Assembly (NCBI GenBank): GCA_027575805.1
Contig: JANBPU010000030.1
Coordinates: 1-64,000, forward strand
Source: Mycoemilia scoparia
Taxonomy: Eukaryota; Kickxellomycota; Kickxellomycetes; Kickxellales; Kickxellaceae
Direction: 5' to 3'
Length of the DNA: 64,000 nucleotides
The translations under genes and the position numbers were made by a program. Positions within the stretch are counted from its first letter, which is position 1, and every line of letters starts with the position of its first letter. Positions 177-42,100 of this stretch are shown here, one piece after another. Under the pieces are notes generated by a model, which saw only the letters and a list, made by a program, of their open reading frames with translations, was not told the DNA's origin and did no database searches.

Positions 177-253
177 TAGTAAACTTGTTTATATGTGTAG
201 AATGTATGTTGGAGGCTTGCATAAGATTGGTCGTAAACAACTGGTATAGTCTA

Positions 254-19801: not shown

Positions 19802-22708
19802 CTAAGAATTAGTTCCAAGATTATGCGTTGTGTATTGGTTCAGGAAGTTTGATGCTCCAGATGATGATGATGATGAAGGGTGGAACTTGGGACTGCTAGA
19901 ATTGCTCGATGGAACAAGATTCATAATACCTGGAGCTAGGGCACTACCAAATGTCTTTGCTGGCCCACCATCCCCGGCGCTATTACTACTAGCGGTTGCT
20001 CCATTAGAATCACTGGCAATGTTACCACCATTCGTTAACATAAAGAAATAGTTTACCAGCGTTTCAGCCATGTTAGTGTCTATTACTAAATTGGAAGGAT
20101 CGGCCTCTATATTTCCCAGGCTTCCACCAGCACTGGCACCATTGCCACCAGGATTCTGTATAGGATTGGCATTTGGTGAGTGTGCCATGAACTGACCTGG
20201 AGAATCCATGAGAGGCTGTGATATCATGTGTGATGCTATTGACGGACCCACCGAGATGGTCGATGTTTGCGTGTTCCCTCCGAAATAGTTATTTCTAAAT
20301 GTTGCATTTGGTGAAGATATGCCCAATGGCATCATATCTGGTGTCTGTTTGCCTATGCTGCTGTGCATTGGCGTTGATGATGAAATAACCTGGTTGTGAT
20401 TAGGAAACATTTCATTAGAACTTGCCGGCGAATGCGTATTGTGGGCATAGCTCATACTCTTCTGGTGCTGATGTTGTTGCTGTTGCTGTTGTGACTGTGG
20501 CTGAAGCGTCGTTGGCATACTGTTCGACTTTGGCACGCTTGGCGGAGTCGGCTGAGCAAATATACCAGAGAGCTGCTGGTTGATAAGACCGCTACGACCC
20601 TTTTTGGTTATTTTGCGGATCAGCACTAGGTCAGCCATTGGAACGTGCTTAGGAAGCATTCTGATCATTTGCTCCATGTCGTCCAAATTGTTAATAAGTT
20701 TATAGCACAGTCTCCACATGCTGGTACCCTGGCGAAGCTGCTGACGGTGCAACGCCAAATCCTGCTGTGCTTCCATCGGGTCATTGGGTGATTGTGGGAG
20801 CAGGCGGAAACAGTGGACCAAAGATGCTTTGAATATACACATGTACCAGCTAAAGTCGCGACGCGCGACTGGAATATCAGATGTGGCTCGCAAAAGGTCA
20901 GCCATCTTTATTGCCGTCTTCATGCTCTTGACCTGGCTAGCTTCAATCAGTTGGCGATCATCGGTAAAATCCAGAACACCACGGTTGAGTTGTATAATGG
21001 CAACATAGTGGCAGATATTTAGGTGAACCAGCATATAGTACTGGGATTCTGTACAGCTTCTTCCCAAATTTTTGTCGCTACTATCAAGGTGTATCTCATT
21101 TGGCAGGCTGTCGAACCAGTGTTCCATAACCACATTGAGCTCTCGGAATTCATTGAGTGCTTCTCTAGATGGGGACCTTGTGTGGGTAACTAGCCAAGCA
21201 ACCTTGGAAAACAACAATGCAAACTGGCAGAAATAAGATACCAGGTTGTGTATTGGCCCAACCTTCTGGTGCTTGTGCCTGTTGCCTTCTTGGTCTGATG
21301 AACGGTCTCGCGTCCATTCAATATTATCGCAGGGCAAATTCACGTCGCAGTATTCGGCTTGAATTGATGGCGCGACAAACAAGGAAACTGCGACATAGTT
21401 TTCAACTTTGAAAATTGCCCACCATACTCTGCGGCCCGACTCTCGTTCTACCCAGTCTGTTGGCGGAGGGGCAATGTTGGGGGCGGCCTGCTCTGAGCTG
21501 TCGATTCTGTTGTACCCTAGATCTATGCACATGCTAAAAACAAACCACAGTAGCGTTATAGTCATGATGTAAGACTCAATTCTGAATTTAGAACTAGAAT
21601 TTGTTCTGTTACTGGGAATAATATGCCGACACTTACTTTAGAGTCAGGGCTGCAGGTTTCGTGAGAAATGCCATTATAGTACCAGAAACGACAAACAATG
21701 GCGTGGTAGCAAAAGAAGAAAGTGAAAAATGGTTAGTATGGTCAAATATGCCCTTGCATGCCTGTATAACAAATCGGGAAATTGCCGTTGAGTAATGCAG
21801 TCTTTTATCTTCTCTTAGCCAAAGCAAAGTCAGGTGACTGCACTGAAATTGCCAAGTATCGGGCAATGGAACTTACATTTGTAGGCTGTGGTAGCATGGT
21901 CCTCTCCAAGCCCAAGGAAGCTGACAGTCATGAGCATAAGGGCTTGGGCGTGGGCCAGACTTGGCTTGTCAATAATATGGGGCATTAGGAGCTTTGCGCG
22001 ATGGAGAAATGGGAGGGCTGAGTCAGATGGCGGGTTAACTCGGACCTGCGGGTGTGAGCTGTGCTTTGCAGCCATGGCCATAACAGCATATAGTAGAATG
22101 TGGGGTGCAGTACCCTCCTCCAGTTGCCGCCTGAAAGTTTGCTGGTGTATGATCCACCAGTATGACAGCTGCTTCTCAAAGAATATGTTTATCAGCTCGT
22201 CGACTATATGCTTTGGTGGCAAATCATTTATGGTCGAGTTTGTGCCAGGCATCATCCAGCCTGTGCGAAGCCCGAGGGAAGAAATTGAGTTTTTCCCTAC
22301 ATTTGATTTAGCCTCCTGTTGCTGCTGCTGGAGGAGGAGTTTTTCCATAGCCTCAACCCGCTCAAACAGCTTGGTGGTTGCATTATAGGCACCAGAGGAT
22401 GGTGTGTCGTTGATTGATTTGTCTCCTGGGCCGGTGCCATTGGCAGTGTCACCTTCGCCATTTCTTTCGAGGCATTTCCACGTCCGTCGTGACTTTGGCT
22501 TCAAGCTATAATGGCAATGGGCCCCTACGCGCTGACAGTGCGAGCACGCTGGTCTCTCACCATCGCATTTGACTTTGCGCTTTCGACAATAGTCGCAAGC
22601 ACGAAGCAGCCTTAAGGGCGGGTGGTTCTGATTTTCGGCGGCATATGTGTTTTCATCACCTGTGGAGGCCCCTGGCGTGTGTGTGAGGCTGGACTGGTTA
22701 TTTTCCAT
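19802..22708 (-). CDS. Zn2Cys6 transcription factor A, with a 13-nt microexon
   Basis: Exons on the minus strand are 22708-21877, 21649-21637 and 21533-19802, giving 858 residues. The Zn2Cys6 cluster is at 38-66 (ACDYCRKRKVKCDGERPACSHC, first Cys38), followed by a Gln-rich helix at about 130-150 and the fungal-specific regulatory domain (about 170-560) with EDHATTAYK, MCIDLGYNRID and RRVWWAIFKVENY. The long tail is Ser/Asn/Gln-rich. The 13-nt central exon (phase 1 in, phase 2 out) is the reading I found that links the flanking exons without a stop and keeps domain spacing: AYK-SLTLN-MCIDLG. An in-frame upstream GTG at 22750 is not used as the start; the first ATG is 22708. It is probably a nuclear sequence-specific regulator; its targets are unknown. 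Confidence 0.88.
21637..21649 (-). other. 13-nt microexon of factor A
   Basis: The minus-strand sequence is CCCTGACTCTAAA, preceded by CTGCAG and followed by GTAAGT. The flanking introns are 21876-21650 (227 nt, donor GTAAGT) and 21636-21534 (103 nt, acceptor TTTTTAG). It completes the codon begun at the end of exon 1 (T+CC, Ser), encodes Leu-Thr-Leu, and starts Asn (AA+C). Position and phases match the microexon of factor C. Confidence 0.75.
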
Positions 22709-24988
22709 GATATGCTTCAAGAGATCTCTTGGGCAGGCTGATGTAGTCACTAGATACGTGACACAATATTTAGCAGTAGTAAAACGGTGGGCCGTGGCTT
22801 CTAATGCGGCTTTACAAGTGAGGGAGTAGTAGCAGTGACAATAGTAGTGGCTCTTGCTTTTGTGCTGGAGCAGAGGGTTTGCAGTGTAAACCAGGTTGCA
22901 AAGGCCTCTGGTTTGTACACATGAAACGGCAAAACAGGAGAGGCGTTAGCCAAGAAGAAGAATAGGTAATGGTAACGATTATAAAGCAAAGAAGATAGTG
23001 GAAAGGAAACCAACTGCAAAAGTCAAAAACTTGCATTATACACTGGAAGCTGACCAATCCTCTCAGATATGGCTTGAGTCTCTTTGATGTGCCGCAAGTC
23101 AGGACCCATCTGCCCAGTCAGCATCCTTAAAGGCTAAACTTTCAACAATAGTGGGCGGGCTGCCAATCGCTGGTTCTCTGTCTCTGTACTTCTGGTCTTT
23201 TTCTCAGCCATCGCACAAACATGACCAAAGTTTTGGGGTTTACATGATTCATGGTTTTCAATGCGATGTCCGAAAGTTCAAATGCTGGTAAAATGAGTAG
23301 GCGTATACCACACCTGCTTTATTTATATGGGGCGTTTCCTTGCGATCTATCAGGTTTTTCCTGTTTGCTTGAACAGCATTAGTCATGCTTCACCATTCCA
23401 TGTAGATTCTGATCCCAGCATACAAAGCGCAAACAGGGCTTGGCCAGTCTAATATTCTTATATCTTTTGCTCATTAGCAGGAACAGGCTTTGCGGTTAGA
23501 AACACATGGGCACAGGCACGCATCCATTTCTCCGTTTCTAGGAAGTATAAAAGCTCCGTGTACCCTGTGGCTGGATCCGATCCCGACTATGCCACACTAG
23601 CATGCACCCATCTAGTATTTTGCCCACTAAATAGCCCAATCAGATCTTTAAGGGCCTGATCTGAGCACTCGGGGAAGTTTCTGCATTGGGTTGAGTTTTG
23701 CTTATGAATAAGGGGAAGTTGGCTGTGGGTGACTCATCACTATACGAGTCTTGTTAAGGCTCACTATGACCACAAATTATATGGCTATTTTTCACAATAG
23801 TTGGGCACACAGGTATGTGCTTTCATCACTTGCTTGTTATAAAATCCCATGCGTGGATAGGGAGAGCCATGCTGCAAGGAAGAGGAATTAAACTGAGCAT
23901 ATGGCAAGTTCTCCATCAAAAGGAAACAATTTGGTACCTTTGTACATTCCCTACAAATCGGCCCATAGCCCATATACTTTAGCTGGAGCCTGGCGGGTTA
24001 TTGGCTACTATCCAGGGTATTCTTCTGGTTGGTACACCTTCAAAGGAGATTCTGAGCAGATAAACTTGAAGCTTTCCCACCACATGATAGTCCCATAAAC
24101 CATACATTCTTGCATGAAATTCTGCCAAAAATCACTAATATATTTGTCAGGGGTGGTTCCGATTCCATTTTGGATCAGATATTGTTGTATGTTAATACTC
24201 AATGGCGTCTGCCATTTAGCTTGTCTAAAAGGAACGGCATATATATATCTCACTGCTAGAACTTGTTTACTCTTTACACACTACCCATGCAGGTATGGCA
24301 CCATACTTAAGGGGTCGCCAAAACAAAATTTTACAAGTCAGACAAGAATACAGCTTTGTATTTAAAAAACAACTACATCCATACTTTAATCCTTGTTTCA
24401 TGAAGTTACCTGTTTATATGGAGAGTGCATTGTATAAAACTTGGTGCTTATCAGATGTAAACATGTAAATAAATCGGACAACATTGTGAATTGTTCCAAG
24501 CGCTGTTGGACCAACAGCTGTTTAGACCAAGATGCTCTTCTTGCAGTCTTTGTAGCCCAATTAAATTAAGCTCATGGCTGTAGCTTCACTGATAAAAAAG
24601 CGTGCCTTCATACTCTGCATTGAATCAGTGAGCACTAAATTCTCAATCAAAATCAAGCTGCATGATAGGTTGGGAGACCATTGAAACAAAGAGAAAAAAT
24701 AATCTGATGGGGGTTATCTGATGGAGGAATCAGTGTGCCACCAGCAGTTTCCGCAAATCTTAAGCTTCTGCCAGGACGGGGATTTCATATTGAGCATGTT
24801 GTTTGTGCTGATAACAAGCAGACCTTTTTAGAGTAACAGCAAGTTAAACTTTACATAGTATCAAAACCCCTTGTTATTTTCTACTTAAATTTCTACCTAT
24901 TTGCAAAACTTTTGACTATACTACTATCCCTTTCAAAGCCCGAAAATCCCATATCTCTGATTAGCTGAAAGCTGGGCACTTTAACACA
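22709..24988. other. Divergent intergenic region between factors A and B
   Basis: A 2.3-kb region between two outward-reading regulators. It holds the family 2 repeat at 23899-24058 and no convincing gene. Promoters of both flanking genes should lie here. I could not assign TATA boxes with confidence. Confidence 0.5.
23899..24058 (+). repeat. Dispersed repeat family 2, copy 5 (best preserved with copy 4)
   Basis: It contains ATGGCAAGTTCTCCATCAAA, AGGAAACA, ACATTCCCTACAAATCGGCC, TTTAGCTGGAGCCTGG, GTTATTGGCTACTATCCAGG, GTATTCTTCTGG and GTACACCTTCAAAGGAGA in the same order as copy 4 at 7529, 16 kb away. The flanking DNA is not related. Confidence 0.65.
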
Positions 24989-27900
24989 ATGTCGAATTAT
25001 GGCAACGGAGGTTCATACGTAAACTTCCAGCCGCTAGTCGTGCCCAGCAGTGCAGTTTTTTCGACCAAATCGTCTCCATCACAGCCCTTTCTAACATCAA
25101 TACCTTCAGTACCCAGCAATCCATTCATGGGATCCCAAGTACGGCTTATGATATCCTGCGATCTGTGTAGGCGTAGAAAAGTACGATGTGATGGTATAAA
25201 GCCCTCTTGTAGTGGTTGTATAAAGGCCAACTCGGCCTGCCACTACTCACCAGTTGGTCCTCGCCGCAAGCCCCGTCGACGAGGATCATCCAAGGCGCCT
25301 AAAGAGGACAGTGATTCAGTGCCGCCTACATCTGCAAAAAGAAAACCATCTACTAGCGGTGCCAGCCCTTTTGAAGATAACACTGCTCAAACAGGGGATC
25401 CAGTCGGGGTCAACACCAGCATACTTTTGAACATGGAACCCAGGATTGGCGGGCGCGTGGGCTCTGAAGACCATATCTCACAGTATTCAGGGTTATCTGA
25501 AAAGAGCCCACCAAAGCAAAAGGCGGGCTTTGGAGCATTATCTCCAGATAGACATGGCGTCTCATCCTCAGTGCACACCAGTGGTGGAGAGGATATGGAC
25601 AATGAATATGTCTATAGCGAAGCCCTGCAGACCGATACCAACAACAGGACTAGCGCGAGCCACGTTGGTGATACAAATAGCAGGGTGGAGGAAATGCTAA
25701 GCATCCAGAATCAGATAACGTCTTTGATGGCCCGCCTTCGTCACTTGACATTAGGCAGCTCACTCGGCGGTGATCTTGCCCATGACAAAAGTGACCCTAG
25801 CAGCAAGCAGATGCAATCCAAAAAAGACATCGATCAAGGGGCTTATGGCACCGCTCCTACCCAGCACACCACCACTCATTGCGGCATAAACATCACACGT
25901 GACCTTATTGATCATCTAGTTACCATATACTTTAAATACTCCCATCCCATGGAAACAGGTATGTATCCACAGGAGTTGTATGAAGAACGGTTAAAAGCCA
26001 GAAAGGTCAGTGAACCACTGCTGCTGTCTGTGCTCGCGGTTGCCAGCCGATACTCAGACGACCGACGTGTGCAACAGACACCGTCTTATCTGGCCGGAAA
26101 CTCCTTCTATGAGAGGGCCAAATCGAGGCTCCCTGACCTATTTGAGCGAGACTCACTGGAGAGCATTCTTACGCTAAACAACCTAGCGATCTATGCTGTT
26201 GGGCTGCCCGTTGCCAACAGAAGTTGGTATTTTTCTGGTATTGCCATGCGGATGGTGACCCAGATGTCTCTGCAGAAGATAGATGCGCACGGCCGAACGC
26301 CGGGTGCAAGCATGCTGAGTGGTCCTGGAATGGAGTCAGCAAGACGGGCCTTTTGGTCAACGATCTTTTTGGAGTCTCTGGCCAGCTTTGCCAGTGGAGA
26401 GCCGCCTTCGACAACCAAAGAGGACGTGCATGTGGCAGAGCCTTGCGATGAAGATGGTATGAGCACACACTTGGCCCAGCTAACCATACTTTTGCTGAGA
26501 GTCTCAAAGCTTAATGGAAATCGGCATCCTGAGTCTGCAAAGTTCAGCAGCGAATATGTGACTCTGCACGACGACATGGTAAAGTGGTACGATTCGTTCC
26601 CAAAACATCTCAAGATTGATCAGGAGAGCGCAGAGCGTGATGCAGCCAATAACCCACAACTGCTGGCTTCGAAAGTGTTTATTCATTGTGTTTATAATGG
26701 GGCAATAATAGCACTGCATCAGCCACGAGTTGATCTTGTCAGAGTTGATCCAGGCAAAGGGCACATTGATGGCTCTAGCAGGGGAGGCGATGGTGCTGCC
26801 GGCAGCGTGGGCAATGATAGTAGCAGTACCCCAGGTAAGACCACAGCAATGGAGGCAAAGACACCGGCAGGACTGCCGGGCCATAATGCAAACATGGATG
26901 TCCAATGGCGGCTTCATGCCCAGCAGAGCTGCTTCAAGGCAGCGAGAACAATAACGGAAACCCTGGTCCTCACGCAAAACCTTGATGTCCGATACCACCT
27001 GGTCACTGTTGGATTCAGTATATTTATGGCCGGCGTGGTCTACGTAACGGCCCTTTCATGCTCACATCCCGAATCGCCAGAATGGCAGTTCAGCTACAAC
27101 TGCGTGAAGCAGCACATGAATATATTGGAAAAGCTTGGAAAGTATTTTGCATTCCACTACATCATGGCGAAGCATATACAGGCCCAGCTCAGTGCCATCC
27201 AGGCATCAGCATCAGCATCCTCGACCTCTTCCAGCCAAAAGGGCGGTAGCACCAACAGTAGTGTCCAAAATAGCACCGACATGCAGAACCAATATAACCA
27301 ACAAAGTCACAATAATTATCTCCAGCATCTTCAACAATCACAGCAGTTTAGCAATCATGACCACCACCGCCATCAGACCTTTAGTCCAGAGAGCCACCAA
27401 AACCTTCCATTTATGAACAATGACAGTGTTAGCGATATTGATCTTTTGTCTCTCCTCGCAAATCCCCCCATGTCTATTGCAGACACTCTTGGGGAGTCTA
27501 TGCTCAACATGTCGGCTAATAATCCAGCTGGAATGGCCGGGTTCTTATCCAGCAACATGTTTGGGCAGCTCATGTCTGGCATGGCCAGCTTCAATGCCTC
27601 CAGCTATGGCTTTGGTAGTGGGGGTATCAGTGACTTTTTGAACACTGAGGGAAACAGCAACAATAGCAATAGAAGCCAGCATCAGCAAAATCTACATGGT
27701 GTAAGTAGTAGCGGTGGTGGTGGTAGTGCTCCTGGCAGCGGGATGCTTGGGTTTTCTGCAGTGTCGCCCACAATATCGAGCCTATTTGCATTAGGCCACA
27801 GCATGTCCTCTCCACCACCTGGCTCAATCTCAGGAAGCACTTTTAATCAACAAGTCCCTGCAGGACATCCACAACAACAACAACATCACCAGCAGCAGCA

Positions 27901-28171
27901 GCAACAACAACAACAGCCAGTATCATCAGATTCCTGGGGTAACTTATCTTTGCTCATGCAGGCCGGAAATATAGAAAGCGCAGCTGCCGCAGCTGCAGCA
28001 GCAACAATTACAACATCACCAGCAGCACTAACAGTAACGACAGGTGGTGGTACTGGATTTGTTGATGGGACCATAAATTCTCCCATGCCAGCTTCTGTAA
28101 CATCGCCTGTTGTCAGTAGTGGTACAACACCATCAACCGCTTTAAGATATGATTTTCATTCCACACATTAA
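24989..28171 (+). CDS. Zn2Cys6 transcription factor B
   Basis: An intronless 1060-residue protein. The Zn2Cys6 cluster starts at Cys57 (CDLCRRRKVRCDGIKPSC) and is followed by a basic linker RRKPRRRG. A leucine-containing helix (about 235-255) precedes the fungal-specific regulatory domain (about 300-770), recognisable from FKYSHPMETGMYPQELYEER, SWYFSGIAMRMVTQMSLQK and ARRAFWSTIFLESLASF. The C-terminal 270 residues are Ser/Gln/Gly/Ala-rich, with poly-Gln near 965-980 and a poly-Ala run near 1000, typical of activation regions. Unlike factors A and C, its GIAMRM segment is not split by introns. DNA target and pathway are unknown. Confidence 0.92.
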   Translation: MSNYGNGGSYVNFQPLVVPSSAVFSTKSSPSQPFLTSIPSVPSNPFMGSQVRLMISCDLCRRRKVRCDGIKPSCSGCIKANSACHYSPVGPRRKPRRRGSSKAPKEDSDSVPPTSAKRKPSTSGASPFEDNTAQTGDPVGVNTSILLNMEPRIGGRVGSEDHISQYSGLSEKSPPKQKAGFGALSPDRHGVSSSVHTSGGEDMDNEYVYSEALQTDTNNRTSASHVGDTNSRVEEMLSIQNQITSLMARLRHLTLGSSLGGDLAHDKSDPSSKQMQSKKDIDQGAYGTAPTQHTTTHCGINITRDLIDHLVTIYFKYSHPMETGMYPQELYEERLKARKVSEPLLLSVLAVASRYSDDRRVQQTPSYLAGNSFYERAKSRLPDLFERDSLESILTLNNLAIYAVGLPVANRSWYFSGIAMRMVTQMSLQKIDAHGRTPGASMLSGPGMESARRAFWSTIFLESLASFASGEPPSTTKEDVHVAEPCDEDGMSTHLAQLTILLLRVSKLNGNRHPESAKFSSEYVTLHDDMVKWYDSFPKHLKIDQESAERDAANNPQLLASKVFIHCVYNGAIIALHQPRVDLVRVDPGKGHIDGSSRGGDGAAGSVGNDSSSTPGKTTAMEAKTPAGLPGHNANMDVQWRLHAQQSCFKAARTITETLVLTQNLDVRYHLVTVGFSIFMAGVVYVTALSCSHPESPEWQFSYNCVKQHMNILEKLGKYFAFHYIMAKHIQAQLSAIQASASASSTSSSQKGGSTNSSVQNSTDMQNQYNQQSHNNYLQHLQQSQQFSNHDHHRHQTFSPESHQNLPFMNNDSVSDIDLLSLLANPPMSIADTLGESMLNMSANNPAGMAGFLSSNMFGQLMSGMASFNASSYGFGSGGISDFLNTEGNSNNSNRSQHQQNLHGVSSSGGGGSAPGSGMLGFSAVSPTISSLFALGHSMSSPPPGSISGSTFNQQVPAGHPQQQQHHQQQQQQQQQPVSSDSWGNLSLLMQAGNIESAAAAAAAATITTSPAALTVTTGGGTGFVDGTINSPMPASVTSPVVSSGTTPSTALRYDFHSTH

Positions 28172-28434
28172 ACAACAGTATTAACAACAGAAATAATGCT
28201 TCATTTACATCGGAGTTATCGATGATTTTCAAACATCCTTTCTTTTTTCATTTGACTTTTCTCTATTAGCGTTTATAATTGATTATTGGATTCATTGTGA
28301 TTATAAATAGAATAACAATTGATGCGAAACAAAGCTTCAACCACCACTACTACTACTACTACTCTTCTACTGCTGCTTATTTTAAATGTGATATAATATA
28401 AAATGGCACAATTAAAAATCTGAGTCTAGCTTGC

Positions 28435-28440
28435 AATAAA
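28435..28440 (+). terminator. Candidate poly(A) signal of factor B
   Basis: AATAAA 264 nt past the stop codon. A second AATAAA at 28495-28500 is an alternative. Confidence 0.3.
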
Positions 28441-28971
28441 ACTCAAACCCAGCATTACTCTGGATATGGATGTGGATGTATACACACCAGTTACAATAAA
28501 GAAAAACGTCCGGATGTTGCTCAATGTAGCAAATTCACAAGACACCACATCTTTTTTTGTTTTTGTTTAACACAGCACAGAATAAAGTATGAGCAAATAC
28601 TAATGTGACTATAGATAAAGAAATAATGTTGTTTCAGCACTAATGCCATTTTGAGCCACATATTATTTCACGCTATTGCTGGTGATTCAAACTCTTGGCA
28701 ACATTGCTGAAAACTAATGTTCCGGATGATTAAGCATTCTATTACTCCTGGCTGAAAATCAATGTTCTAGAGTTTCGAATTAATACATACAGATTCCATA
28801 AACAACTCAACGATATGGCGTAATTGTAATATCGGTAGTACAGGACATTATTTTTTCATCAAAGCGCAAGGCAAAATTTGGGAAAAAACATGTATATATA
28901 TATATATTGGTTTATTATTGAAAATGGTTGGTGGGTGGGTGGGTAAATCTAAATTCCTGTGTGGCTAAAAC

Positions 28972-28977
28972 TTTATT
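28972..28977 (-). terminator. Candidate poly(A) signal of factor C
   Basis: Plus-strand TTTATT reads AATAAA on the gene's strand, 194 nt past the stop codon and beyond the MITE-like element. If it is used, the element is transcribed into the 3' UTR. Confidence 0.35.
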
Positions 28978-29070
28978 ATGATTAAATGTTGGTAGTAATA
29001 GTAATAAATAGTATATTCATCTCTCTTTCTGCTTCCAGCGCAAATCTTGCCATGATATTAGGTGTGAGTT

Positions 29071-29171
29071 ATACGGATCATAATTGTTAAGGGTACCTTT
29101 TAGTGGCCAACAATTAAAAGGGCAATTACAGCCAAATGGATGACTACCCCTTCAAAAATAACTACCCATAT
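29071..29171 (-). mobile_element. MITE-like element copy 4, abutting a stop codon
   Basis: A 101-bp element in reverse orientation to copies 1-3. On the minus strand it runs from ATATGGGTAGTTATTTTTGA at 29171 to a partner at 29071 (ATACGGATCATAATTGTTAA on the plus strand). The interior GTAGTC, CATTTGGCTGTAATTGCC and GTTGGCCACTAAAAGG match the family. Its edge touches the TAA stop of factor C (29171-29173). Confidence 0.7.
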
Positions 29172-29608
29172 TAGGGCGATGAACTAGTAGGATGTGTTTG
29201 TTTTTGATCACCAGCTGTACTGCTACTGGGGCTAAATAGAATTATGTCGTCAAATAGATTATCACGATTGGCCGATGAATTCTGGGGGGTTGTGTGACTT
29301 GGATAGCCTCCACCAGTAAATGGTGATAATGACTGTGATGTATTTAGCGGCATTGAAGCTGATGGTGCTCCTCCTCCTTGCTGCAATTGATGGTTAATTC
29401 CTTGGTGTACTGTGCCAAATATATTGTTATTCCCGTTAATATTGGTCTGCCCATCGACACCAGAATTGATCGAACCCAAATCTTGTGGATATGATGCTGA
29501 CATTGCAGCTGCGTTTAGCTGATCAAAGTTTATAGCCATCCCTGGTATCATCGTGCCTGAAGTCATTTGAAGCATTTGTGGGCTAAATCCCTGAATACCA
29601 TGTTGTTG

Positions 29609-29639
<31 letters not shown>

Positions 29640-32482
29640 AGCAACAAAAACTGACTGTTAGTCATATGATTTCCAGGGCCTCCACTCATTGCTGAGGCTG
29701 CTGATCCTTTCGGATAATTTGAAAGCTGGGATGTCATAGACCCTATCGTCATTGCAAAGCGATTTAGGAATTCTGATGGGTCTGCACCAAGCTCTGCCGC
29801 CTTCTGACTAGACTTTCCTTCCTGTGACTCTCCAGATATATTGGCCTTTTGGCCTAGTTGCTGGACAAAGTTAACACGGTTGCGAAGTTCTTCGAGTCTT
29901 TGTAGCTGCTGAATTTGTTGAAGATGTGCTGATGTTTTTGGTTTTGAGGCATTCTGTGTGGGAACTGTGGGCACAGTGATATTGACGTTAGAAGGCAGTT
30001 GGGGATTAAATGTGAAATTGCTATTTACATTGCCAAAGTTAATAGGTGAATACGAGCTCTGATCTGATAGATTTCTTGCTGAATTTGTGCCAATATTGTT
30101 CAGCGCTGGATTTAGGTTTATATTGAATGGGCTTGATCCACCTCCACCTCCACCTCCACCAGTGGTTGCTGGTAATGATGCTGGTACAGCGACATTGTCA
30201 CTCGATCTAGCAACAGAGGTAGCTGGACTTGGAGTGAAGTTCGAGGCAACGTGCTGAACAGGAGAAGGCTGTATTCCGGGAACTGATCCCAACAAGCTTG
30301 GGTTAGACATGGCCATTTTCAAATGCTTCTTGAAAACCGGTTGGAATTGGCTATAGCTGTATGAATAGCCTTCGTAAGAAGTTGTAATTGGAACTATCCA
30401 GGGATCAGAGCTGACATTGGCATCAGAAGATTGGCTTGACGTTGAATGCTGCTGAAGGCGGATCTCATTAACAGCATGAAGGACGGTTATCAAATTCATG
30501 TTATAATAGTACAGTTTTCCAGCGCTTAGATGAAGCTTGAGATGCGTTTCCAAGTCATTTTTGCCCTGTGCGCTTAGCTTGCTGTCAGAAGAATAGCTGG
30601 TATTAATGTGAATGGTGCTCCCATGGAAAGCCCAAGCGCCAATGTGTGGATCCCAATAGTCCATTGGAATGTTGGTCATGCACCAATTTATTATCTCCGT
30701 CTGTCGATGGGCAGCCTCTATACACATATTTTTGGCATTTATAATATTTTCGAGGGGAACATTCTCATATGTATAATTGGGAAGCTCTGATCTGTAGAGG
30801 ATGATCTTTGCGGCAGTATATAACATGTGTACTGTGGCATACACGGAGAACAGGCGTTCGTATGCAATCGTGTTTTGGGCATACTCTGTAATTCCCCGAA
30901 GAATGTACTGGCTTTGTGGAGGAAACTCTAGGTACTTGGGAAACTTTGCGTATATTGCCTCTAGATCCTTAGCCAATTGGTTAAACGCGTCCCTTCTGTT
31001 TTGCTCACCGGGTCTTATTGGGCGGCGCCGACGGTTGACAAATTGGCATATACGACCCATCTGCACGTAGAGCTCGCATATTATCCATATGGTGTCTGGT
31101 GGGCTTGAGCCAGAAGTCTTCTCATTTTCCCACGATTCACGATGGCCAGATCCATATAACCATTCGTGGTCTTGTGAGGGCATATTGCAAACAAAATCTG
31201 TTTCGCTAATAGTTGCCGGCCGCGCGGCAAGCATCACGGATATACGGTCCGCTGTATAGCAGGCCCACCACAGGCGACGACGCCATTCCTTTGTTGTGGC
31301 CGAAGGTGGTAAAGAGTCTGAATTCTCATTCAAAGCATCTGGATCATCTGTGAGATGAATTTTCGCTCTTTCCGCCAATCTATAGTTAAAAAGGGGTTAT
31401 TAGATTGCATTTTGGCGCTTTATTTGCATGGTATTGTTGTAATAAAACATATGTGACATATACCTTAAAGCCAGGCCTTGGTGGTTAGTGCATGCAAGTA
31501 TTCGGATAGTAGGGTGGGGTGAGAGTTAGTCTCTGAGCAATAGATCATTCATTCTGTAGTATAATTGTAATCATAGTAAAGACTTACCAGTGAACGTCCA
31601 GGCAGATTCACCACGCCCACATGCATATTCGTAAAGACCCAAGTACAATAGGGTGATGATCACATTGTCCTCTGGCTTATCAACCATACTAGATATGAGG
31701 TATGCAGCCCTTTCAGCGAAGGCGCGACCAGCTAGATAGCGCGGACCCCTGGAAAACTGGGGAATCGACGAGTGGCGAGCGCCATTTGCTATAATGGCAC
31801 ATGTAAGATATTCTGGTATTTGGCCCCTGGAGAGGCGCTGCATAATTATGTTGCTAATAAATGGGTTCTGGTATGCCATTGCCACACAGCAAAAGGAATC
31901 GATTAGGCTGTTCACTATTTCTTGCGGTGGCATGGTGAAGTTATTGCGACCTGGATGGTCCTGTGATAGCTTTGCTGAGTTCATTGAAGCAGCTAAGCTG
32001 TCGTTTTGATTTTCTGAGGGAAAAGACGGTATGTTGCTGTCAGCATACGGGCTTTGGCTAAGCTGCTTCTGCTGCTGCTGGTTCAAAGTCATATTTTCGA
32101 CCAGGGGGCGGAGGAGCTGCTCCATATAAAGAAGCCTTTCTTCAAGCTTCTCAATAACACTGCGGCGGACACGCTTCTTGCGAACAAAGGGGCTGTAGTG
32201 GCAGGCAAGCTTGAGCCTTGTGCAGTGAGCGCAGGAGGGTTTTGACCCATCGCACTTGATTTTCTTTCGACGACATACGTCGCAGGCGTGCATTAGGCGA
32301 GACTGCTTAGGCTGAGGGTTATCGTTATCGCCACCCCCATCAGCATCATCGTCGATATTATTCTCGTTGACCTCATTGTCGTCCTCAAGGTCATTGGACC
32401 TCGACCTGTTTGGAGACTCCTCGGAGCTCTCCCTGGCCCTGATAGTGCCCTTATTGCTGGGGCTGGGCTGATGAGTTTGCAT
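29171..32482 (-). CDS. Zn2Cys6 transcription factor C, with a 13-nt microexon
   Basis: Exons are 32482-31588, 31476-31464 and 31379-29171, giving 1038 residues. An acidic N-terminus is followed by the Zn2Cys6 cluster from Cys67 (CDVCRRKKIKCDGSKPSC), then a short coiled coil IEKLEERLLYMEQLL. The regulatory domain (about 170-560) reads AWTFTG-LALR-LAERAKIHL across the two introns and continues EWRRRLWWACYTADRISVML. The tail is Gln/Asn/Gly/Ser-rich, with a poly-Gln run (about 29606-29644). The introns are 31587-31477 (donor GTAAGT) and 31463-31380 (donor GTATAT, acceptor CTATAG). The WTFTGLALRLA segment aligns residue for residue with the usual W-x-x-x-G-x-A-x-R-x-A signature, which supports the microexon. 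Targets are unknown. Confidence 0.9.
31464..31476 (-). other. 13-nt microexon of factor C
   Basis: The minus-strand sequence is GCCTGGCTTTAAG, preceded by CCACCAAG and followed by GTATATG. It completes Gly (G+GC), encodes Leu-Ala-Leu, and begins Arg (AG+A). Length, entry phase 1 and exit phase 2 are the same as in factor A. Confidence 0.78.
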
Positions 32483-34865
32483 TGCTACAAGCTAAATGAA
32501 AGGGAACGGGTATAGAGTGGAGACGCTCTACCAGAAAGAAAAGGGAAGGCCAATTTGGAGGGTCTGGTGGGAATAGTAGGCGGTCAGTGAGAAATAAGCA
32601 GGTCTAGAGACAGTAATTATACGGACAAAAAACAAAGGGTTAAATAGATAAGAAAGAGGCATAAGAGAAGAGCCACCAACAATGCCAAGGCCACCTTAGC
32701 TATCAGGGCGGGTGAGCCTCCTCATTGTTGAACGAGTGCTGCTCGTGGGTGTCTCTTTGCACAACTGGCTGGCCCTTCCATGCTACACCAAAGCCAAATC
32801 ATTGTCTATGATCCATGATCCTCAAAGATCCCAGTGAGGATAATTGGGCACCATAGGAAAATATACTTAGCCCAGTAGTCCGTAACGTTTGAATTAAGCC
32901 TTTTCCAGAATGCTTGGAAATCATGCCTAATTGCCTAGCGTTCTGGGATGGCAGTCTCCACAACATAGTATTGACTTTCACTTGGGGCCTGCGTTGTGGT
33001 TGATCTAAGCGGTGCCTGCTCGTCACAGTTCTATTCTCTCATGGCGATCTTTTATGACCCGGACCAACCATCACGCATGTGCCAGCCATGCTATGGGCGA
33101 TGCTTAATTATGGAGGCAGCATTTATATTATTCAGCAGACGTGCCAGTACCAGCACTGGCACGCACACACAAATGTGTATATATGTATATGTTTCTGTGT
33201 GCGCATTCTGCTGCTTTTGACAGCAGCATATGCAGCCTAAAGCCTATTAGAGGGCCTGTTCTGTTTTTGAATAGGGGAGCCTGAAATGTATAAATATAGA
33301 GATGGCGATGGGGCTTTAGCCGATGTTTAGCCGAAGACAAGCGAGCAGCAGAAAACAACACACTGGCCAATATTTCCAGGGGCATGAACAATAGAAGCAT
33401 GGCTATAACCTCTGCTTCCCTTTGGTCACCTGGTGTTTTGATTAAGAACAGGAAAAGCTGCGAGGACATGTTCAAATCTCACTTGAGTCGTCGTGAACAG
33501 GATGAGCAGGAATATGCCCAGTATGCGCGGGCACTAGGCGATTTCCACTCACACGAGAGACTTGCAAAAGTCCCAGTGATACGTCCAGCGGCAGTCTGGC
33601 TGGCGTATGTGGGCTGCTCAGGAGGGCCCGACCGTACCAGCAGACCAGGAGGATCGAACAAACCTGCATTGCTTGTTAGGCTTTGCGTCTGCTTAATAAG
33701 CTGCCCCTAGAGCCAGCTGCCAAGTAGGACGCACAGCCCAGCAGCTGTGGGCCAGTGCCAAAAGTGCCAGTTGCTGGTGATCGCTGCTGAGTGTCTTTTG
33801 GAGGCAATTGCAGGCCATCCCATGGTGTGCTTGGGGCTAAGCGTTTTAATAGGGGCAACGGCAAGTATGGTCTGTAGGCAGAATGGGGGAGGCAGGTGGC
33901 AGCCGTTAGCAGCAGCGGAGCCGACAGGCGAGAATGGGCCTGCAGCTATCTCTGGCGCCAATGTTGCCTGGAGAGGAAGTGGGCTTGCAGAGGCAAAGAG
34001 GGGACTGGTCGCTCCTGGCGAAAGAAAAGGTAGATCAAGAGCCATTGGCATAGTCTGGAGCCCAGGTTGTTGTGGATTGCCAGACAGGCAGGCAGACGCA
34101 GGCAGTAGAGCCAGCGGCTACTGCTGTTGCAATGTAGGGAGGCATAGCGCGAATGAGAATGAGCAAAGGTGGGAGTGAGGCGCCACAGCGAAGCACGCCG
34201 CACACTCGCTGCCTGTGTGACCGATTGTCGCAGCCAAAACGACAAGCCCACGTTTTTACTACTTCTTCAACCACTCAAGCTGTGGACGCAAGGTTTGGCA
34301 TTTGGCTCTTTCTTTTTGAGGCGGACTTTGAATCATATTCTTTCTCTCCTCGCATCTCTTCTATACTGTCTGCCATCCCCCACCGATTTGGCTCTCATAC
34401 TCTATTTCCTCGCTTCAAGCTCATCCCTGTGTGCCTGCCGCTGGCCTTCATGCGAGCTTCACCCAGGCCCTAATAAGACCGTCTAATTCCTTTTGTTCAA
34501 AAGTCCTCTTCTATTTCTTTTTCTCTGTTTCTCTCTTTCTCTGTTTATCTATCGCATACTGCATATACATTACCACCCCACTTTGGGCCCCTCTATCTTG
34601 CCTGCACAGCCCATCTGCCTCTTTTCGCTTGTGTAGACTACCAAGCTGACATTTCTCTGAGCCCTCTCTCTCGCTTTCTCTTTTATATTTTCTTTAGCCT
34701 GTGCTTGCTGGGAGCCCCTATTAATTCCTAACGCTGCGCATTCCTGCCCTGGGGTTATTCTCTTCGTCCCTTTAATCCCCTTATTCCTATGAACTCCTCC
34801 AGTTCGTCTTTACTGACTATACATTAACGTTGCTCTTGACATTTATATCAAATTTCCAGCAAACC
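32483..34865. other. Divergent intergenic region between factors C and D
   Basis: A 2.4-kb region likely carrying two promoters and long 5' leaders. It contains an 8-bp-arm dyad at 33141-33162, a TATAAATA at 33289-33296, and a long pyrimidine-rich stretch (about 34480-34690) ahead of factor D. AATTTCCAG at 34851-34859, 6 nt before factor D's ATG, looks like a 3' splice site, so a leader intron is possible. Several 60-140-codon frames here have no family resemblance. Confidence 0.5.
33141..33162. promoter_or_regulatory. Perfect dyad symmetry in divergent promoter region
   Basis: GTGCCAGT and ACTGGCAC form 8-bp inverted arms around a 6-nt centre. Such a site could bind a dimeric regulator, but nothing else supports function. 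Confidence 0.3.
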
Positions 34866-37800
34866 ATGGACCAGCCACCACCCCATAACAACAACAGCAA
34901 TAACAGTCTCCCATCAATCCCCCCTCAGCAAAGCAGTCAAAACTACCACGGCCACTCACAGGACACGCAGAAGCTGAACACCTCTCCAATAATGCTCACA
35001 CCGTCGTCCTCGAGCAACCTGAACCAGCCTCTAGCCGTGTCTACATCAATAGGGTCATCATCTGCTACTTCGACTGTCCAACACACGAATTTGCCGGTGT
35101 CTGTCCCAACGAATACAAAAGGCTCGTCCGTGGCAACACCAAATTCCACCTCTGGGTCTGCATCCACAAATAACCCCACGAATAAAGGCAAGGAGCCGGA
35201 GAAGAAGAAAAAGCGCCTCACACAAGCCTGCGATCATTGTCGGAAGAAGAAAATCCGCTGCGATGGAATTCGACCCTCTTGCAAGAATTGTCACCGCCTA
35301 TCCATACCCTGTACTTATGTTCCATCCTCGCGTAAGAGGGGAAGGAACGGCCAAAAGATGGTAGATCGTCCATACGGCGGAATGGCCTATGCACAACCCT
35401 ACGGGCGCCCAGGAGTCCCTTCCAATCTTCACCAAAACCAAAGACCAAGCTCTATGCAACAACGCCCATCTATAGCTTCAGCTTTCAACACACATATGCC
35501 ATCACTGCATCTCAAGGTCGACCCGCGTTTTGGACAGGATAATGATGAGCCTCATATGGACCCAGAGAAGGCTGCTGCCGCTATGCAGAGTTTCACCGGC
35601 AATTATTACCTCCCAGTAAACAACTTTCAATTCTTAAATAATGCACAGGGAAGGCCTGGTCTTAACAATGGTGGAAACAACGCCACGCCTAACAACATAC
35701 CACCAAACTCAGCAGCCACGATTCATTCATCACAATTGCCCGTTGGCAATGCTAGTGGCGGTTCATCCACTTCTGTCGACCACGGCAGCAATAGCAACGC
35801 TAACAACCACCAGTTCCGCCCGGGAGTATTTGGGCTTCAACACTTTCCTCAAAACGTCAGCCAACAAGATCACGCAAAGGCCATTGCTCAAAGTATCACC
35901 AACCTATTTAGTAACAACAGCAATAATAATAATAACAACAATAATAACCCTAATGTAGCCAGTAGTAATCCAAATTCTCTTCCCACGCTCCCAATGTTTC
36001 AAATGCAAAATTTCCCAATGGCGCCCTTTTCCAACCAACCACCAAACTTCAACCCACCATTCCCGCCAGCACCTCTTGGCGCTTCTGGCATTCCAGGAAA
36101 AGAAACCGCTGCTGCTGGTGCTAGCACTACCCCCCTGAGCGCGTCTTTCTCAAGAGATTCGACATTGAATGAGGCTGCAGGTTATTCGCAGCATAAAGTG
36201 GCGAATTCTGAATCCAATTCCGGTTCTGCAACAACACCATTCAGTAACAGTGAGTCCAACCTTAACCCACAGAACAATATCAATCGCCCCAACCCAACGC
36301 AACATATGCAGCAACTTAGATCTCAGTTTGAGCAGATATTGGATGCTATGTGGCCTCACACCCGCGCAAATAAGAGCCTTGGGCGAGCTGGGGATGCAAA
36401 TGCCCTCAATACACCAGCCAGCCAGAATGGTGGTGAGGCAAACACAAGCAGTCTGCACGGGTCTTCTGCTGCATGTGAAGACAACAGCACCCTGCAAGCG
36501 CTCGAACTTCCAAACAACACAGTCACTGACCAGCTTGTAACGGCGTTTTTCGAATTTAACCACCCAGTATTCCCTGTAGTCCACAAAAGAGCCTTTGTGC
36601 GACAATATCGGCAGAATAGCGCTAACCCGCTGCTGGTTAATGCTATGTGTGCATCTTCTGTAATGTTTACCAACCGCATTGATGACGAGCGGAAGCAGCT
36701 CTATGGAAAATACTCCAAGCTTGTGCAGGACAGCTACCATGAATCAACCTTCGCGCCGTCGCTCGAGGTTGTGCAGGCATCGCTGATTATGGCCCTTTGC
36801 GAGTCAAGGATGGGCAATTATCCAAAGTCATGGGTTTATACATCAATGAGCTTCCGTCTAGCCATGGAGCAGGGATACCACCGTGCTGATGAGGATGGCG
36901 ATCGTGAGATCAATACAGACGCCTCTGTGGCTGTCTTGCATGAAACACAACGGCGGGTATTCTGGATTAGTTACCTTCTTGATCGCTACACATGCATTAT
37001 GAATGGGCATCCCATGGGTATCAATGATAGCGATATTAAGCTTCGTTTACCCATGCCCGACGAGCCGTGGGACAATGGTGTAGCAAACAGTGCGTGTTCT
37101 GAGATGTTTTGTCCGCCCTTCTCAAATGGCACATCCAGCCAAATGCGACCCAGCCTGTCATTAGGCAAGCCTGGAGGCGATGCAGGCATTTTATCCCATT
37201 ATATCAAGCTAGTTTCAATACTCAGTCATATTACCCACCATGCCATTGCGCCCACAGAGCCCACTCACCCTGGCCAAGGAGATGCAAACGCCAGTGCTAC
37301 CTCGGCAACACCAAATCCAAAATTCTCGGTCTTTGACAATGCCTTGCGTGAATGGAAAGAGGGCCTTCCAGCAAGCCTTGACTACTCGGAGTGCAAGAGC
37401 CAAAGCCATCCTCCACACCATACTGTATTTTTGTCCTGTCTTCACGTCGTCTACTACAGCTCCATTATCCACCTAAACAGGCAAAATATGCGGTACCTGA
37501 ACGGCGGTGTTGGACAGTATGACACGTCCACAGGTCTTGCCTTGAGATCTATCGAGCGGTGCAGGGTTGCTGCCATGGAGATTGTTTCCTTGTCTCGACA
37601 TCTAGACACCTTCCCACTGGCATTTTCCCACCCGCTTCTGCCCTGGGCATTCTTCCAAGCAGGGACAATTCTCATTCACTATATGGTTGCTGGAAACACC
37701 GCGCAGCAGCAAGAAGCGGCCAAGAATTCGATAACTACACTCAGCTATGCACTACGCGATGGGCTTGGACGTTTTTGGAACATCGCACAGAAATACCATG

Positions 37801-38738
37801 TCGTCTTGTCAGGGATGGTAAATGCGTGGGAGTCTGCTGTAGGTTCATCGTCCTTGCATGATGATGCATCTGAGGTCAGTAGCCAGGCCAACTCCAGCAG
37901 CAGGTCTGCCACATATCCACCGCTGAGCAGCCCGCCTGCACCACACCAGCTCTCATCCCATATGGATTCAGGCGTCTCTGGTAATCGCTCGCATCCCCAC
38001 CAAATGGACGGCAACAGCCATACCTCAATGGCTGTTGATGGCTCAAACACTACAGCAGCAGCAGCAGGGTTTTCTATGGCCTCAGCCCCGCCGTCTGTCC
38101 CACTATCAGCACCTGGCATTAATGACAGCGGGTTTAATCCATTGGCTGCACTATTTAGCCAGCTCTCTCGTGACCCTCAGCTTGCCAACGCCACCAGCTC
38201 TGGTAATTTTTACACCATGCAGTCGATGTCCCTTGATATGAATGCCCTGCTCTCGCCCACTGGCTTGAAGCCGGGGGTACAGAACCCATCCTCGCTCTTG
38301 GTTTCCTCAAAGCCCAATGATGCTTCTGGTTGTGTGTCCAGTGCCAATTTTTCGCACGCGCAAATGGCAGCTGATAACATGCCAAACCATAGCGGAGAAG
38401 GTGGAGCCAGCGTCTCTTCCACAACCAGCGACGCCGGCCATACGTCCATTCCACAGTCAATGGTTTGTCCTCCATTTGATTTTAACAACATGGCCACAAA
38501 CGGCGCTCAAAGTGGGCCAGGCATTGACCCGATATTCCTCTCACAAATGGGTTCCATAATCAATGAATTGCAGTTCTTTTCTTCCTCTCAAGCTGGCCTT
38601 GGCTCATCTCTTCAGAGTGCAGCACCATCATCGCCAAATAACCTAAAGCCTCGCCTCCAGGTTTCGCAGTCTATGTCAGGCACAGCATCTTCCACAGACA
38701 TGCCCCTTAATCCACATAACCATGAGTCCACTCAATAA
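34866..38738 (+). CDS. Zn2Cys6 transcription factor D
   Basis: An intronless 1290-residue protein. The ATG at 34866 has an AAACCATGG context; the frame is open further upstream but without an earlier ATG. The Zn2Cys6 cluster starts at Cys122 (CDHCRKKKIRCDGIRPSCKN) with a basic tail SSRKRGRNGQK. A long Asn/Pro/Ser-rich linker carries a poly-Asn run. The regulatory domain (about 545-960) contains FFEFNHPVFPVVHKRAFVRQ, SWVYTSMSFRLAMEQGYHR and RRVFWISYLLDRYTC. The C-terminal 300 residues are Ser/Ala/Gly-rich. Like factor B it has no intron inside the SFRLA segment. Its regulon is unknown. Confidence 0.92.
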   Translation: MDQPPPHNNNSNNSLPSIPPQQSSQNYHGHSQDTQKLNTSPIMLTPSSSSNLNQPLAVSTSIGSSSATSTVQHTNLPVSVPTNTKGSSVATPNSTSGSASTNNPTNKGKEPEKKKKRLTQACDHCRKKKIRCDGIRPSCKNCHRLSIPCTYVPSSRKRGRNGQKMVDRPYGGMAYAQPYGRPGVPSNLHQNQRPSSMQQRPSIASAFNTHMPSLHLKVDPRFGQDNDEPHMDPEKAAAAMQSFTGNYYLPVNNFQFLNNAQGRPGLNNGGNNATPNNIPPNSAATIHSSQLPVGNASGGSSTSVDHGSNSNANNHQFRPGVFGLQHFPQNVSQQDHAKAIAQSITNLFSNNSNNNNNNNNNPNVASSNPNSLPTLPMFQMQNFPMAPFSNQPPNFNPPFPPAPLGASGIPGKETAAAGASTTPLSASFSRDSTLNEAAGYSQHKVANSESNSGSATTPFSNSESNLNPQNNINRPNPTQHMQQLRSQFEQILDAMWPHTRANKSLGRAGDANALNTPASQNGGEANTSSLHGSSAACEDNSTLQALELPNNTVTDQLVTAFFEFNHPVFPVVHKRAFVRQYRQNSANPLLVNAMCASSVMFTNRIDDERKQLYGKYSKLVQDSYHESTFAPSLEVVQASLIMALCESRMGNYPKSWVYTSMSFRLAMEQGYHRADEDGDREINTDASVAVLHETQRRVFWISYLLDRYTCIMNGHPMGINDSDIKLRLPMPDEPWDNGVANSACSEMFCPPFSNGTSSQMRPSLSLGKPGGDAGILSHYIKLVSILSHITHHAIAPTEPTHPGQGDANASATSATPNPKFSVFDNALREWKEGLPASLDYSECKSQSHPPHHTVFLSCLHVVYYSSIIHLNRQNMRYLNGGVGQYDTSTGLALRSIERCRVAAMEIVSLSRHLDTFPLAFSHPLLPWAFFQAGTILIHYMVAGNTAQQQEAAKNSITTLSYALRDGLGRFWNIAQKYHVVLSGMVNAWESAVGSSSLHDDASEVSSQANSSSRSATYPPLSSPPAPHQLSSHMDSGVSGNRSHPHQMDGNSHTSMAVDGSNTTAAAAGFSMASAPPSVPLSAPGINDSGFNPLAALFSQLSRDPQLANATSSGNFYTMQSMSLDMNALLSPTGLKPGVQNPSSLLVSSKPNDASGCVSSANFSHAQMAADNMPNHSGEGGASVSSTTSDAGHTSIPQSMVCPPFDFNNMATNGAQSGPGIDPIFLSQMGSIINELQFFSSSQAGLGSSLQSAAPSSPNNLKPRLQVSQSMSGTASSTDMPLNPHNHESTQ

Positions 38739-39115: not shown

Positions 39116-42100
39116 ATGACTAAGATAAAAAAGAAAACACACCGGCGGGTCGTGTATCCGGTATGTATTTTCTAAGCAATGCTCTACCTTGATGGTCAGG
39201 CAAATTGCTGCGGCAAGGCAGCCTCACCAGCTGTTAACGCTTACCCATTTCTTCGCCCCCATTTATGAATGCGCACCCGTCTATAGCTCCATGTGTCCTA
39301 GTGCTATGTGCCTACATTCTAAGGCCATTATATTATTTCACACTTTCTGCAAATTCGTGATTGCTAATGTATATTATATATGTGTATACGTGGTACCAAC
39401 AATAGCCAGAAGAAATACGCAGCCTACGAACGGCCCTAGAAACCTGCCCAGACAACGAGATTTCAACCACGATTTCCAATCTTGGCGAATGGAAGTTCTT
39501 ACGTGGTGACCTCAGTCACTGGATCACGGTTTTAAACAGGTTTGACAGCATACTCGAGAATATTTGTAAAGTCTATGAGCTGAGCAATCTTCAGTCTAAA
39601 CCATTTACGTCACAAGATGAAAGTATGGTAGTGGGGATACTGGATTTTACGCTAATGTTGCTCGAGAATTGCATAAACAGAAATCTCTACTCCTCTTCTG
39701 ATGTAAGTACTTTTTTATATCACACCATCTTGCCTATTGAACAGCCAGATTAATTAAAATATATGATCTTAGATACTAACTTGTTTTTGTTATCTGGCTA
39801 TTTTGATATGACCTTGTACTTTATTGCTGTTGCTACTACTTCTGTTACTATTGCCATAGCGCTTAGAAGAACTAAAAAATACAACAAATGTCAATGTTTT
39901 GGAAAGAGTGCTCTTGATATATCTAAAAGCTTCACAGAGATGGAGTATACAGCGGGATCCTCGCGATGGCCTAATTAATGTCATGGAGAGGATATTCTTT
40001 CTTTCTCAGCCATGGGGAGTCAAGAAGCATGTTATCCAGGCAGCAGATCAGCACAAATACAAAGATCTTTCAGAAAGGACCGAGCTATTGTTGCTTCTCA
40101 ACTGCGGCGAAAATAAGGCAGACATCACCGAAGAAATGGCATCTATCAGTTATCAGTTCTATCGTGGTGCTGCAGATATCAGCGAGTTAGAGGGCTCGAA
40201 AGAAGGTCTTAATGTAGGTGCCGCAGCACCAATAGGTATTACAACTAGCACTAGCAACAGCAATATATCTGCCAAGCAAAGTAGATTGTCAAAACATGGC
40301 AGTGTTCGGTCAAAGTTTGGTAGTCGAAGAAATCAGCAGCAGATTGTCGATTTAACTGTACCACAGCCACGTCCAACCAGCGAAGGTTTGGTCACCATTG
40401 ATATCCCTGCATCTCAATGGAAACAGTTTGGATCTGTTCAGGAAGCTATGGCCAAGGTTATTCAATACTACCATATTCCTCGTCGGTGTCACTATAACCT
40501 ATGGTTTCGTGCTCAAGTTGCAATGGCAGTGGCTGGAGGGGTGAAAGGTCAGCTAGATTCACTTTTGAGGTGCCGCATCCTTGCTATAAGCATTTTATCT
40601 ACTGTCGCTACTGAGCTCGAGTTCAATTCCAGGGTTCTATCTCAAGATCCACAGCTAGTTCACGACCTTGTCTCTGCGTTGCAGCCAGAAGCTTGCGTGC
40701 CAAAACAAACACAGACATGTATACTATTTTGTATCGATGCGTTGCTAAGAAAGCGTGATCAGGTCCCTGCGCTGTTTTCTGCCTTGAAAATTTCAACCAA
40801 CCACGGCGTCCTTATGTTTATACTCAAGAGAGCATTTGTAACACCAGGTGGTGGCAGTTCTAGCGGAGATTTGCTATCCCGTTCCTATTTGGACGCTTTG
40901 CACCTATTCCTTACTACTTTGACTTCCACCACCAAGGGATCGCAGTCACTTGTTTCATCCGGTGCAGTCAGCCTATTTGTTTCAGTTCTGAAGCACAGCG
41001 ATGATGAGAAGGAGCATGATATTATGAATGTCTTGAGGGCTACCAGGATGCTATACTTTATCATGGTTTCAGCTCAGGGCAATGCCTTTTCTTCATTTGT
41101 TAGTGCCGAGGGAGTGTCAGTATTGGTCAAGCGCATGTATATTGAAGTCGACAGAGCAATCCACACCAGCTCTCTTGCAGATGCTGCTTCTAGAGACTTG
41201 AAAGCATCCCCATACCCACTTCCTCAATATCCCAACGACCCATCCGCCCTTTACAAGGCCGCAGAGATATTGCCACTAACCCAAATTTCGCTTCTCAAGG
41301 CCTTGTTTAAGCTTCTCCACCACCTTTTACAGCAAGGAAGCTATCAAGACCGCCTTCGCAATATTGTCGAAACCAGTCTGCCCAAAACCCTGGAGAAGGT
41401 AATTTTTCATCCTGAATGTTTTGGCACTAATGTTTATGGCGTTGCGATCAGGATCATGTCCAAGATTATTTACAACGAGCCGACTAGTCTTAGCATCCTG
41501 CAAGAAAGCACCTTACCATCAACATTCCTTTCCCAGGTTGGAGAGTACATTCCTTACTCTTCAGACACGCTCATTGCCATTCCAAATGCATTGGGTGCCT
41601 TGTGTTTAAACCAACCTGGATTCGACCAAGCTGTATCTTCCAATGTCTTGGCCAAGCTTTTTGAGTCCATGTCATCTCTAAGCTTTGTCAATGTATTTCA
41701 GATGAGCAACGGGCTCGGAGAGCTTGGCATTGAAATCGATGAATTTATGAGACATTATGCTTCGGTGTGCGATGGAGTGATGACAAAGGTAGTGGGCTAT
41801 CTTAATAATGTTGTAGCGCTCGGAACCACTGGATCAGAGTCCATTGTTTCAATTAACCCCGGAATTTCAACTTTGTTCAAGAATGATGAAGAGTACAAAA
41901 AGAAGGACTGTTTAGAAGATTTGTACGGTATTATGTTAGATTCTGCAACATCCTTTGTTGACGGTGTCCTGGCTCAAGATTTCCATACAGAGCGGTTTAT
42001 TGAAAAGGGCGGTTGGAAGGCACTTGTTGCTATGCTTAGGTCACCACTCTTGTCCTTCGATTTCAACATATCACCAAAGATTGACATATTTGCGGCTTTG

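Follow-up and report, generated by a model that had tools for sequence, protein, structure and literature searches.

On a stretch of Mycoemilia scoparia DNA of 64,000 nucleotides, analysed as a whole and referred to below as the window, four Zn2Cys6/Fungal_trans genes, factors A, B, C and D, lie side by side within 19 kb (19802-38738). These four neighbours do not group together in the tree of the family. Factors A and C are read in three exons, the middle one being a putative microexon of 13 nt, and all the junction coordinates proposed for the two genes in a preliminary description of this DNA hold on the minus strand (Table 1). All four introns are of the GT-AG type, with lengths of 84 to 227 nt, and the spliced frames stay open through to the stop codon, yielding proteins of 858 aa (A) and 1038 aa (C). 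The W-x-x-x-G-x-A-x-R motif of the Fungal_trans domain is read through in both factors only with the 13-nt exon, and the two microexons, each preceded by a phase-1 intron and followed by a phase-2 intron, fall at aligned residues. This correspondence, described initially for two genes, in fact extends to three: gene E, encoded outside the window, contains the microexon CTCTTGCGCTGCG, which codes for S-L-A-L-R and again stands between a phase-1 and a phase-2 intron, so that exon length (13 nt), phases and aligned codons are the same in A, C and E. The homologous segment of B and D, previously characterized as intronless, is indeed read without interruption in both.

Table 1. Coordinates of the genes, exons and introns discussed (window positions unless stated otherwise)
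Feature	Position	Strand	Remarks
Factor C exon 1	31588..32482	-	Zn2Cys6 cluster and first part of the Fungal_trans domain; phase-1 end ...TTCACTG
Factor C intron 1	31477..31587	-	111 nt, GTAAGT...AAG; CACTAAC ahead of the acceptor
Factor C 13-nt microexon GCCTGGCTTTAAG	31464..31476	-	Codes for G-L-A-L-R with adjoining bases
Factor C intron 2	31380..31463	-	84 nt, GTATAT...TAG
Factor C exon 3	29171..31379	-	First base completes the Arg codon; remaining Fungal_trans domain and C-terminal region
Factor A exon 1	21877..22708	-	Phase-1 end ...TACAAAT
Factor A intron 1	21650..21876	-	227 nt, GTAAGT...CAG
Factor A 13-nt microexon CCCTGACTCTAAA	21637..21649	-	Codes for S-L-T-L-N with adjoining bases
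Factor A intron 2	21534..21636	-	103 nt, GTAAGT...TAG
Factor A exon 3	19802..21533	-	
Factor B open frame	24965..28171	+	Homologous protein segment YFSGIAMRMVTQ, intronless
Factor D open frame	34776..38738	+	Homologous protein segment YTSMSFRLAMEQ, intronless
Gene E	Contig C141, outside the window; L047: exon 1 to 3014, microexon 3191-3203, exon 3 from 3419		

The spliced proteins of A, C and E carry both domains that define the family: Zn_clus (PF00172) is matched with 46.1, 41 and 42.8 bits, respectively (cut-off 21), and Fungal_trans (PF04082) with 93.4, 72.7 and 64.1 bits (cut-off 23), the latter scores being those of the N-terminal parts of A and C and of the C-terminal part of E. In factor C, the microexon lies within the Fungal_trans domain, about 197 residues past the zinc cluster. 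At the sequence level, the features of a microexon (an internal coding exon of at most 15 nt flanked by two spliceosomal introns) are all present, namely GT-AG introns on both sides, a reading frame that is kept and conserved coding content.

Elsewhere in the window, an uninterrupted frame of 3925 aa (39860-51637) ends in a region that by eye resembles a HECT-type ubiquitin ligase, and a frame of 1107 aa (254-3577) contains, again by eye, two C2H2 fingers, together with one region which we take to resemble Ste12. The contig of gene E is palindrome-like over C141:1-26070 (L046 and L047), with mirrored copies of E whose coordinates sum to 26071 and with a tested 3864-base stretch that is identical in both arms; either a genuine inverted repeat or a fold-back created during assembly could account for this.

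Scoring of splice models

Every open GT-AG model around the gap, with the middle exon absent or of any length, was enumerated and scored against a profile built from 89 public proteins (90 rows), which contains no Mycoemilia sequence but includes orthologues of A and C, and from which P0047, P0028, P0070 and P0080 were left out. With the orthologues of each factor thus included, the 13-nt model ranked first among 1031 models for A, 11.5 bits over the next, and first among 120 models for C, 8.9 bits over the next. It also ranked first when middle exons were limited to 60 nt (among 520 models for A and 120 for C). When the gap sequence was permuted 1000 times with dinucleotides kept, an equally good middle exon appeared in 10 of the 1000 shuffled gaps of A and in none of the 1000 of C. 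Models with a single intron or with a longer middle exon were thus enumerated for both factors and were all outscored by the 13-nt model, the best single-intron models scoring lower by 11.7 bits (A) and 19.3 bits (C).

Gene E is divergent and for this reason is poorly discriminated by the broad public profile, in which the 13-nt model ranked only second among 1085, with 59.9 versus 59.0 bits for the best single-intron model (+0.9), and shuffled gaps were equally good in 469 of 1000 cases. With a profile of the two nearest uninterrupted paralogues of E, the 13-nt model ranked first among 1970, shuffles equalled it in 2 of 1000 cases, and the best single-intron model was 14.1 bits lower. A loose genome-wide pattern, built after A, C and E had been seen, gave 17 matches versus 13 for a reversed control, and is therefore not a rare one in itself; A, C and both copies of E account for four of the 17 matches. 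When E and an Endogone protein were combined in a two-row profile and run against 7876 candidates, only the GenBank protein of E itself was returned.

The residues encoded by the microexon are conserved among the relatives of both factors. The search with C gave 26 close proteins, 25 of them named Coemansia, Linderina or Spiromyces, and all 26 have G-[LMI]-A-x-R at the site, gapless; the nearest one is a partial protein of Spiromyces aspiralis with the sequence WTFTGLALRLAERAKLHLTDD. This search, with candidates up to about 1081 aa, returned no Mycoemilia protein. The search with A gave 23 proteins, all named Coemansia, Kickxella or Linderina, and the 22 that cover the site contain the residues without a gap; P0070 is the one that does not cover it. 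No DNA from related fungi was detected in the viral and prokaryote contig collections searched. The corresponding residues of the Linderina orthologue (326-330) fall in the middle of a helix (318-334) of its AlphaFold model, with a mean pLDDT of 93 for residues 321-330. A fold search gave only weak matches, the best of which was to a yeast inner-kinetochore chain (8ow1, E 0.025), with GAL4 (1d66) and a CBF3 core (6p7w) among the next.

Predicted splicing and its outcome

Judged from the sequence, and with a probability that we put at about three in four, the 13-nt exon would be a real, homologous microexon of this Zn2Cys6/Fungal_trans group, with two introns inherited from the ancestor of A, C and E and with an inclusion that is probably constitutive. 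Two ordinary introns would interrupt one alpha helix of the Fungal_trans domain, the first within a Gly codon (phase 1) and the second within an Arg codon (phase 2). Recognition probably proceeds by intron definition, with each intron forming a separate unit; this is the splicing mode that Romfo et al. reportedly described in 2000 for Schizosaccharomyces pombe, and it would allow the microexon to be shorter than exon definition permits.

Skipping of the microexon brings a stop codon 8 nt (A), 47 nt (C) or 14 nt (E) past the junction, and a transcript retaining either of the two introns would reach an early stop as well. In A and E, the phase-2 GTAAGT donor of intron 2 itself supplies an in-frame TAA immediately behind the microexon when this intron is not removed (window 21637, L047:3203). 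In view of such early stops, we consider constitutive inclusion, with each intron recognised as a unit, the most likely mode of splicing; a transcript devoid of the microexon would code for no more than the zinc cluster and a portion of the Fungal_trans domain, which also argues for constitutive inclusion.

The same properties could serve a regulated switch, in which inclusion would depend on conditions and skipping or retention would either inactivate the regulator or leave a zinc cluster with part of the Fungal_trans domain. We regard such a switch as unlikely. It would accord with an exon length that is not a multiple of three and with the early stops, including those provided by the donors of A and E themselves, and the retention of two introns in otherwise uninterrupted frames could reflect selection to keep them. 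A precedent is Xlr2 of Trichoderma, in which a 20-nt microexon within the zinc cluster (PCRRCE) is included in the absence of glucose, as described for Trichoderma virens (PMC11121469). Against a switch, four of the six splice sites flanking the microexon are strong (CAG and GTAAGT in A and E), which points to efficient inclusion, those of C being weaker (AAG acceptor, GTATAT donor). The placement within the zinc cluster seen in Xlr2 is not shared by the microexon described here, which lies in the Fungal_trans domain.

Together with the AP2 microexons of plants, Xlr2 is the closest system known. In Xlr2, as here, a fungal Zn2Cys6/Fungal_trans regulator has a microexon whose length is not a multiple of three, which was overlooked by gene models and which is conserved among relatives (PMC11121469). 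The authors call functional microexons previously undescribed in filamentous fungi. However, Xlr2 is one gene in an ascomycete genus, documented by RNA-seq and RT-PCR, whereas the microexon considered here is known from the sequence of three divergent Kickxellales paralogues; the two also differ in size and location (20 nt in the zinc cluster versus 13 nt in the Fungal_trans domain). That the introns are kept because they encode a small RNA, an idea prompted by RPL7 and NOG2 (PMC8476143), was considered and rejected: in the window, Rfam models at gathering cut-offs detected only a tRNA, and in L047 they gave no match.

Probable descent of the intron pair within the gene family

The PF04082 matches in the genome correspond to at least 14 genes, with E, present twice on the palindromic contig, counted once. 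In 11 of the 14 genes found, the motif and the zinc cluster lie in one frame, and the other three, A, C and E, have exactly this intron pair. Four further zinc-cluster genes, C456, C17, C188 and C169, gave no Fungal_trans match; the part read was their long frames, and an interrupted domain may be present there. Uninterrupted members in the same genome allow loss, retention and splicing of the microexon to be compared within one genome.

A tree was built from 44 chosen Fungal_trans domain rows, of which 14 are Mycoemilia genes. In it, E is placed with C240 (98/82) and, with less certainty, with C252a (87/83), both of which are uninterrupted, and A and C each group with their own Kickxellales orthologues. 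A tree in which A, C and E with their orthologues form the sole carrier clade was rejected (p-AU 0.009); neither a clade of A and C (p-AU 0.178) nor one of A, C and the group of E, C240 and C252a (p-AU 0.099) was rejected. C240 covers just 44% of the columns, and the longest branch is that of C252a, so that the placement of E is not beyond doubt. The same position and phase occur in paralogues other than nearest relatives. From the rejection of the A, C and E clade, it follows that the intron pair probably predates the split of these genes and was lost elsewhere.

For the carriers A, C and E of Mycoemilia, on which this account of descent is based, the intron pair is thus probably older than their splits and was lost in C240, in C252a and probably in others; otherwise it arose more than once. 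The preliminary claim that the intron pair preceded the divergence of the sequences is in this sense probably right, given the tree and the AU tests. The other paralogues may have lost both introns together through reverse-transcribed mRNA, a mechanism that would fit because the 14 genes have both introns or neither.

A separate origin of the pair in E on the one hand and in A/C on the other, at an identical site, would agree with the rejection of A, C and E alone as a clade and with the uninterrupted state of the nearest paralogues of E, but it would require two positions, two phases and the spacing between them all to coincide, and the clade of A and C with the whole E group is not rejected. 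Moreover, the junctions have no common sequence motif (ACTG|GC, AAAT|CC and ACAT|CT at the first; AAG|AT, AAA|CA and GCG|TG at the second). As phases, codons and spacing agree exactly and the junctions share no sequence, inheritance would be much likelier, and we consider independent gain quite improbable.

The microexon may have a counterpart in another phylum. The Endogone protein P0028 reads LHE and, after 18 missing residues, MAQELG, and the gap ends exactly at the Arg/exon-3 boundary of Mycoemilia, as expected from a predictor overlooking an equivalent 13-nt exon; the gap may therefore be a missed microexon. The tree neighbour of P0028 is the Variospora protein P0029 (95/79) rather than A or C, and P0029 has, by eye, 18 residues where P0028 lacks them. 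A microexon so ancient that it would predate the split of Kickxellomycota and Mucoromycota, and that would have been kept because its inclusion gates a working regulator, is a speculative extension to which we would give perhaps a slightly better chance than to a regulated switch. If other phyla share it, the microexon would be an age marker for a very large regulator family.

Public gene models and known microexons

The GenBank protein of A (P0047, H4219_002086, Mycoemilia scoparia) contains 53 extra residues at the microexon site that are present in none of the 22 relatives covering it. To obtain this protein, the first donor, the last acceptor and the donor of the microexon are kept as in the 13-nt model and intron 1 is given a different acceptor, so that the last 159 nt of intron 1 are read as exon and the middle exon becomes 172 nt long; this splice model scores 166.3 versus 185.4 bits for the 13-nt model and ranks 20th of 1031. 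Of the 1085 models for E, the 13-nt model alone yields its GenBank protein (P0094, H4219_004976), an argument from the protein sequence and not from deposited exon coordinates. P0094 has 649 aa and starts inside the Fungal_trans domain, leaving out the zinc cluster, which is found upstream in the same open frame (L047:1136-3014). The expectation that most gene predictors would miss the microexon is thus supported by the protein of A, where a predictor went wrong, but the microexon is not always missed, as the protein of E requires the 13-nt exon; the related expectation that each gene would be split in two fails for A in GenBank. The case of A shows that the best-conserved motif of the domain can be disrupted by a false insertion in a public model of a Fungal_trans regulator. 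That no microexon exists at all, the gap being closed by one intron or by a longer middle exon as in H4219_002086, is very improbable: the longer-exon protein is the deposited one for A, single-intron models with an open frame do exist (29 for A, 27 for C and 25 for E) and the broad profile hardly separates them for E, but the deposited model of A ranks low and has an insert foreign to its relatives, and the best single-intron models of all three genes fall well behind, that of E in the paralogue profile.

A real and homologous microexon, as favoured here, would mean that one tiny exon is common to three divergent paralogues of an early-diverging fungus. Fungal microexons have reportedly been found in the P450 genes of Phanerochaete chrysosporium, which likewise are very small internal exons but in other genes; we know of no position common to these and to the Fungal_trans family. 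Among the open-access PMC matches listed, there was no report of a microexon in the Fungal_trans domain. In plants, small conserved microexons of regulator families are established and widely misannotated (PMC8831610). The 13-nt exon resembles the 9-nt AP2 exon described there in being tiny, in lying in the core domain of a transcription-factor family, in being kept across its members and in being often misannotated, and in some of the plant clusters gene variants have kept or lost the flanking introns, as in the family studied here (PMC8831610). The plant microexons were found with RNA-seq, and the AP2 exon preserves the frame, in contrast to the 13-nt exon (PMC8831610).

For a rough background frequency of microexons in this genome, ten neighbouring match pairs were read off in Myosin_head, SNF2 and Peptidase_M1 genes. 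None of the ten omits 2-20 model positions, some gaps possibly being insertions and not introns; seven meet or overlap in model positions (C66, C68, C304 twice, C267, C46 and C118), and three omit 63-115 positions (C448, C22 and C435). The Peptidase_M1 genes C41:8181-8834 and C201:6013-6666 have identical scores, and C41 and C201 are perhaps duplicated contigs in the assembly.
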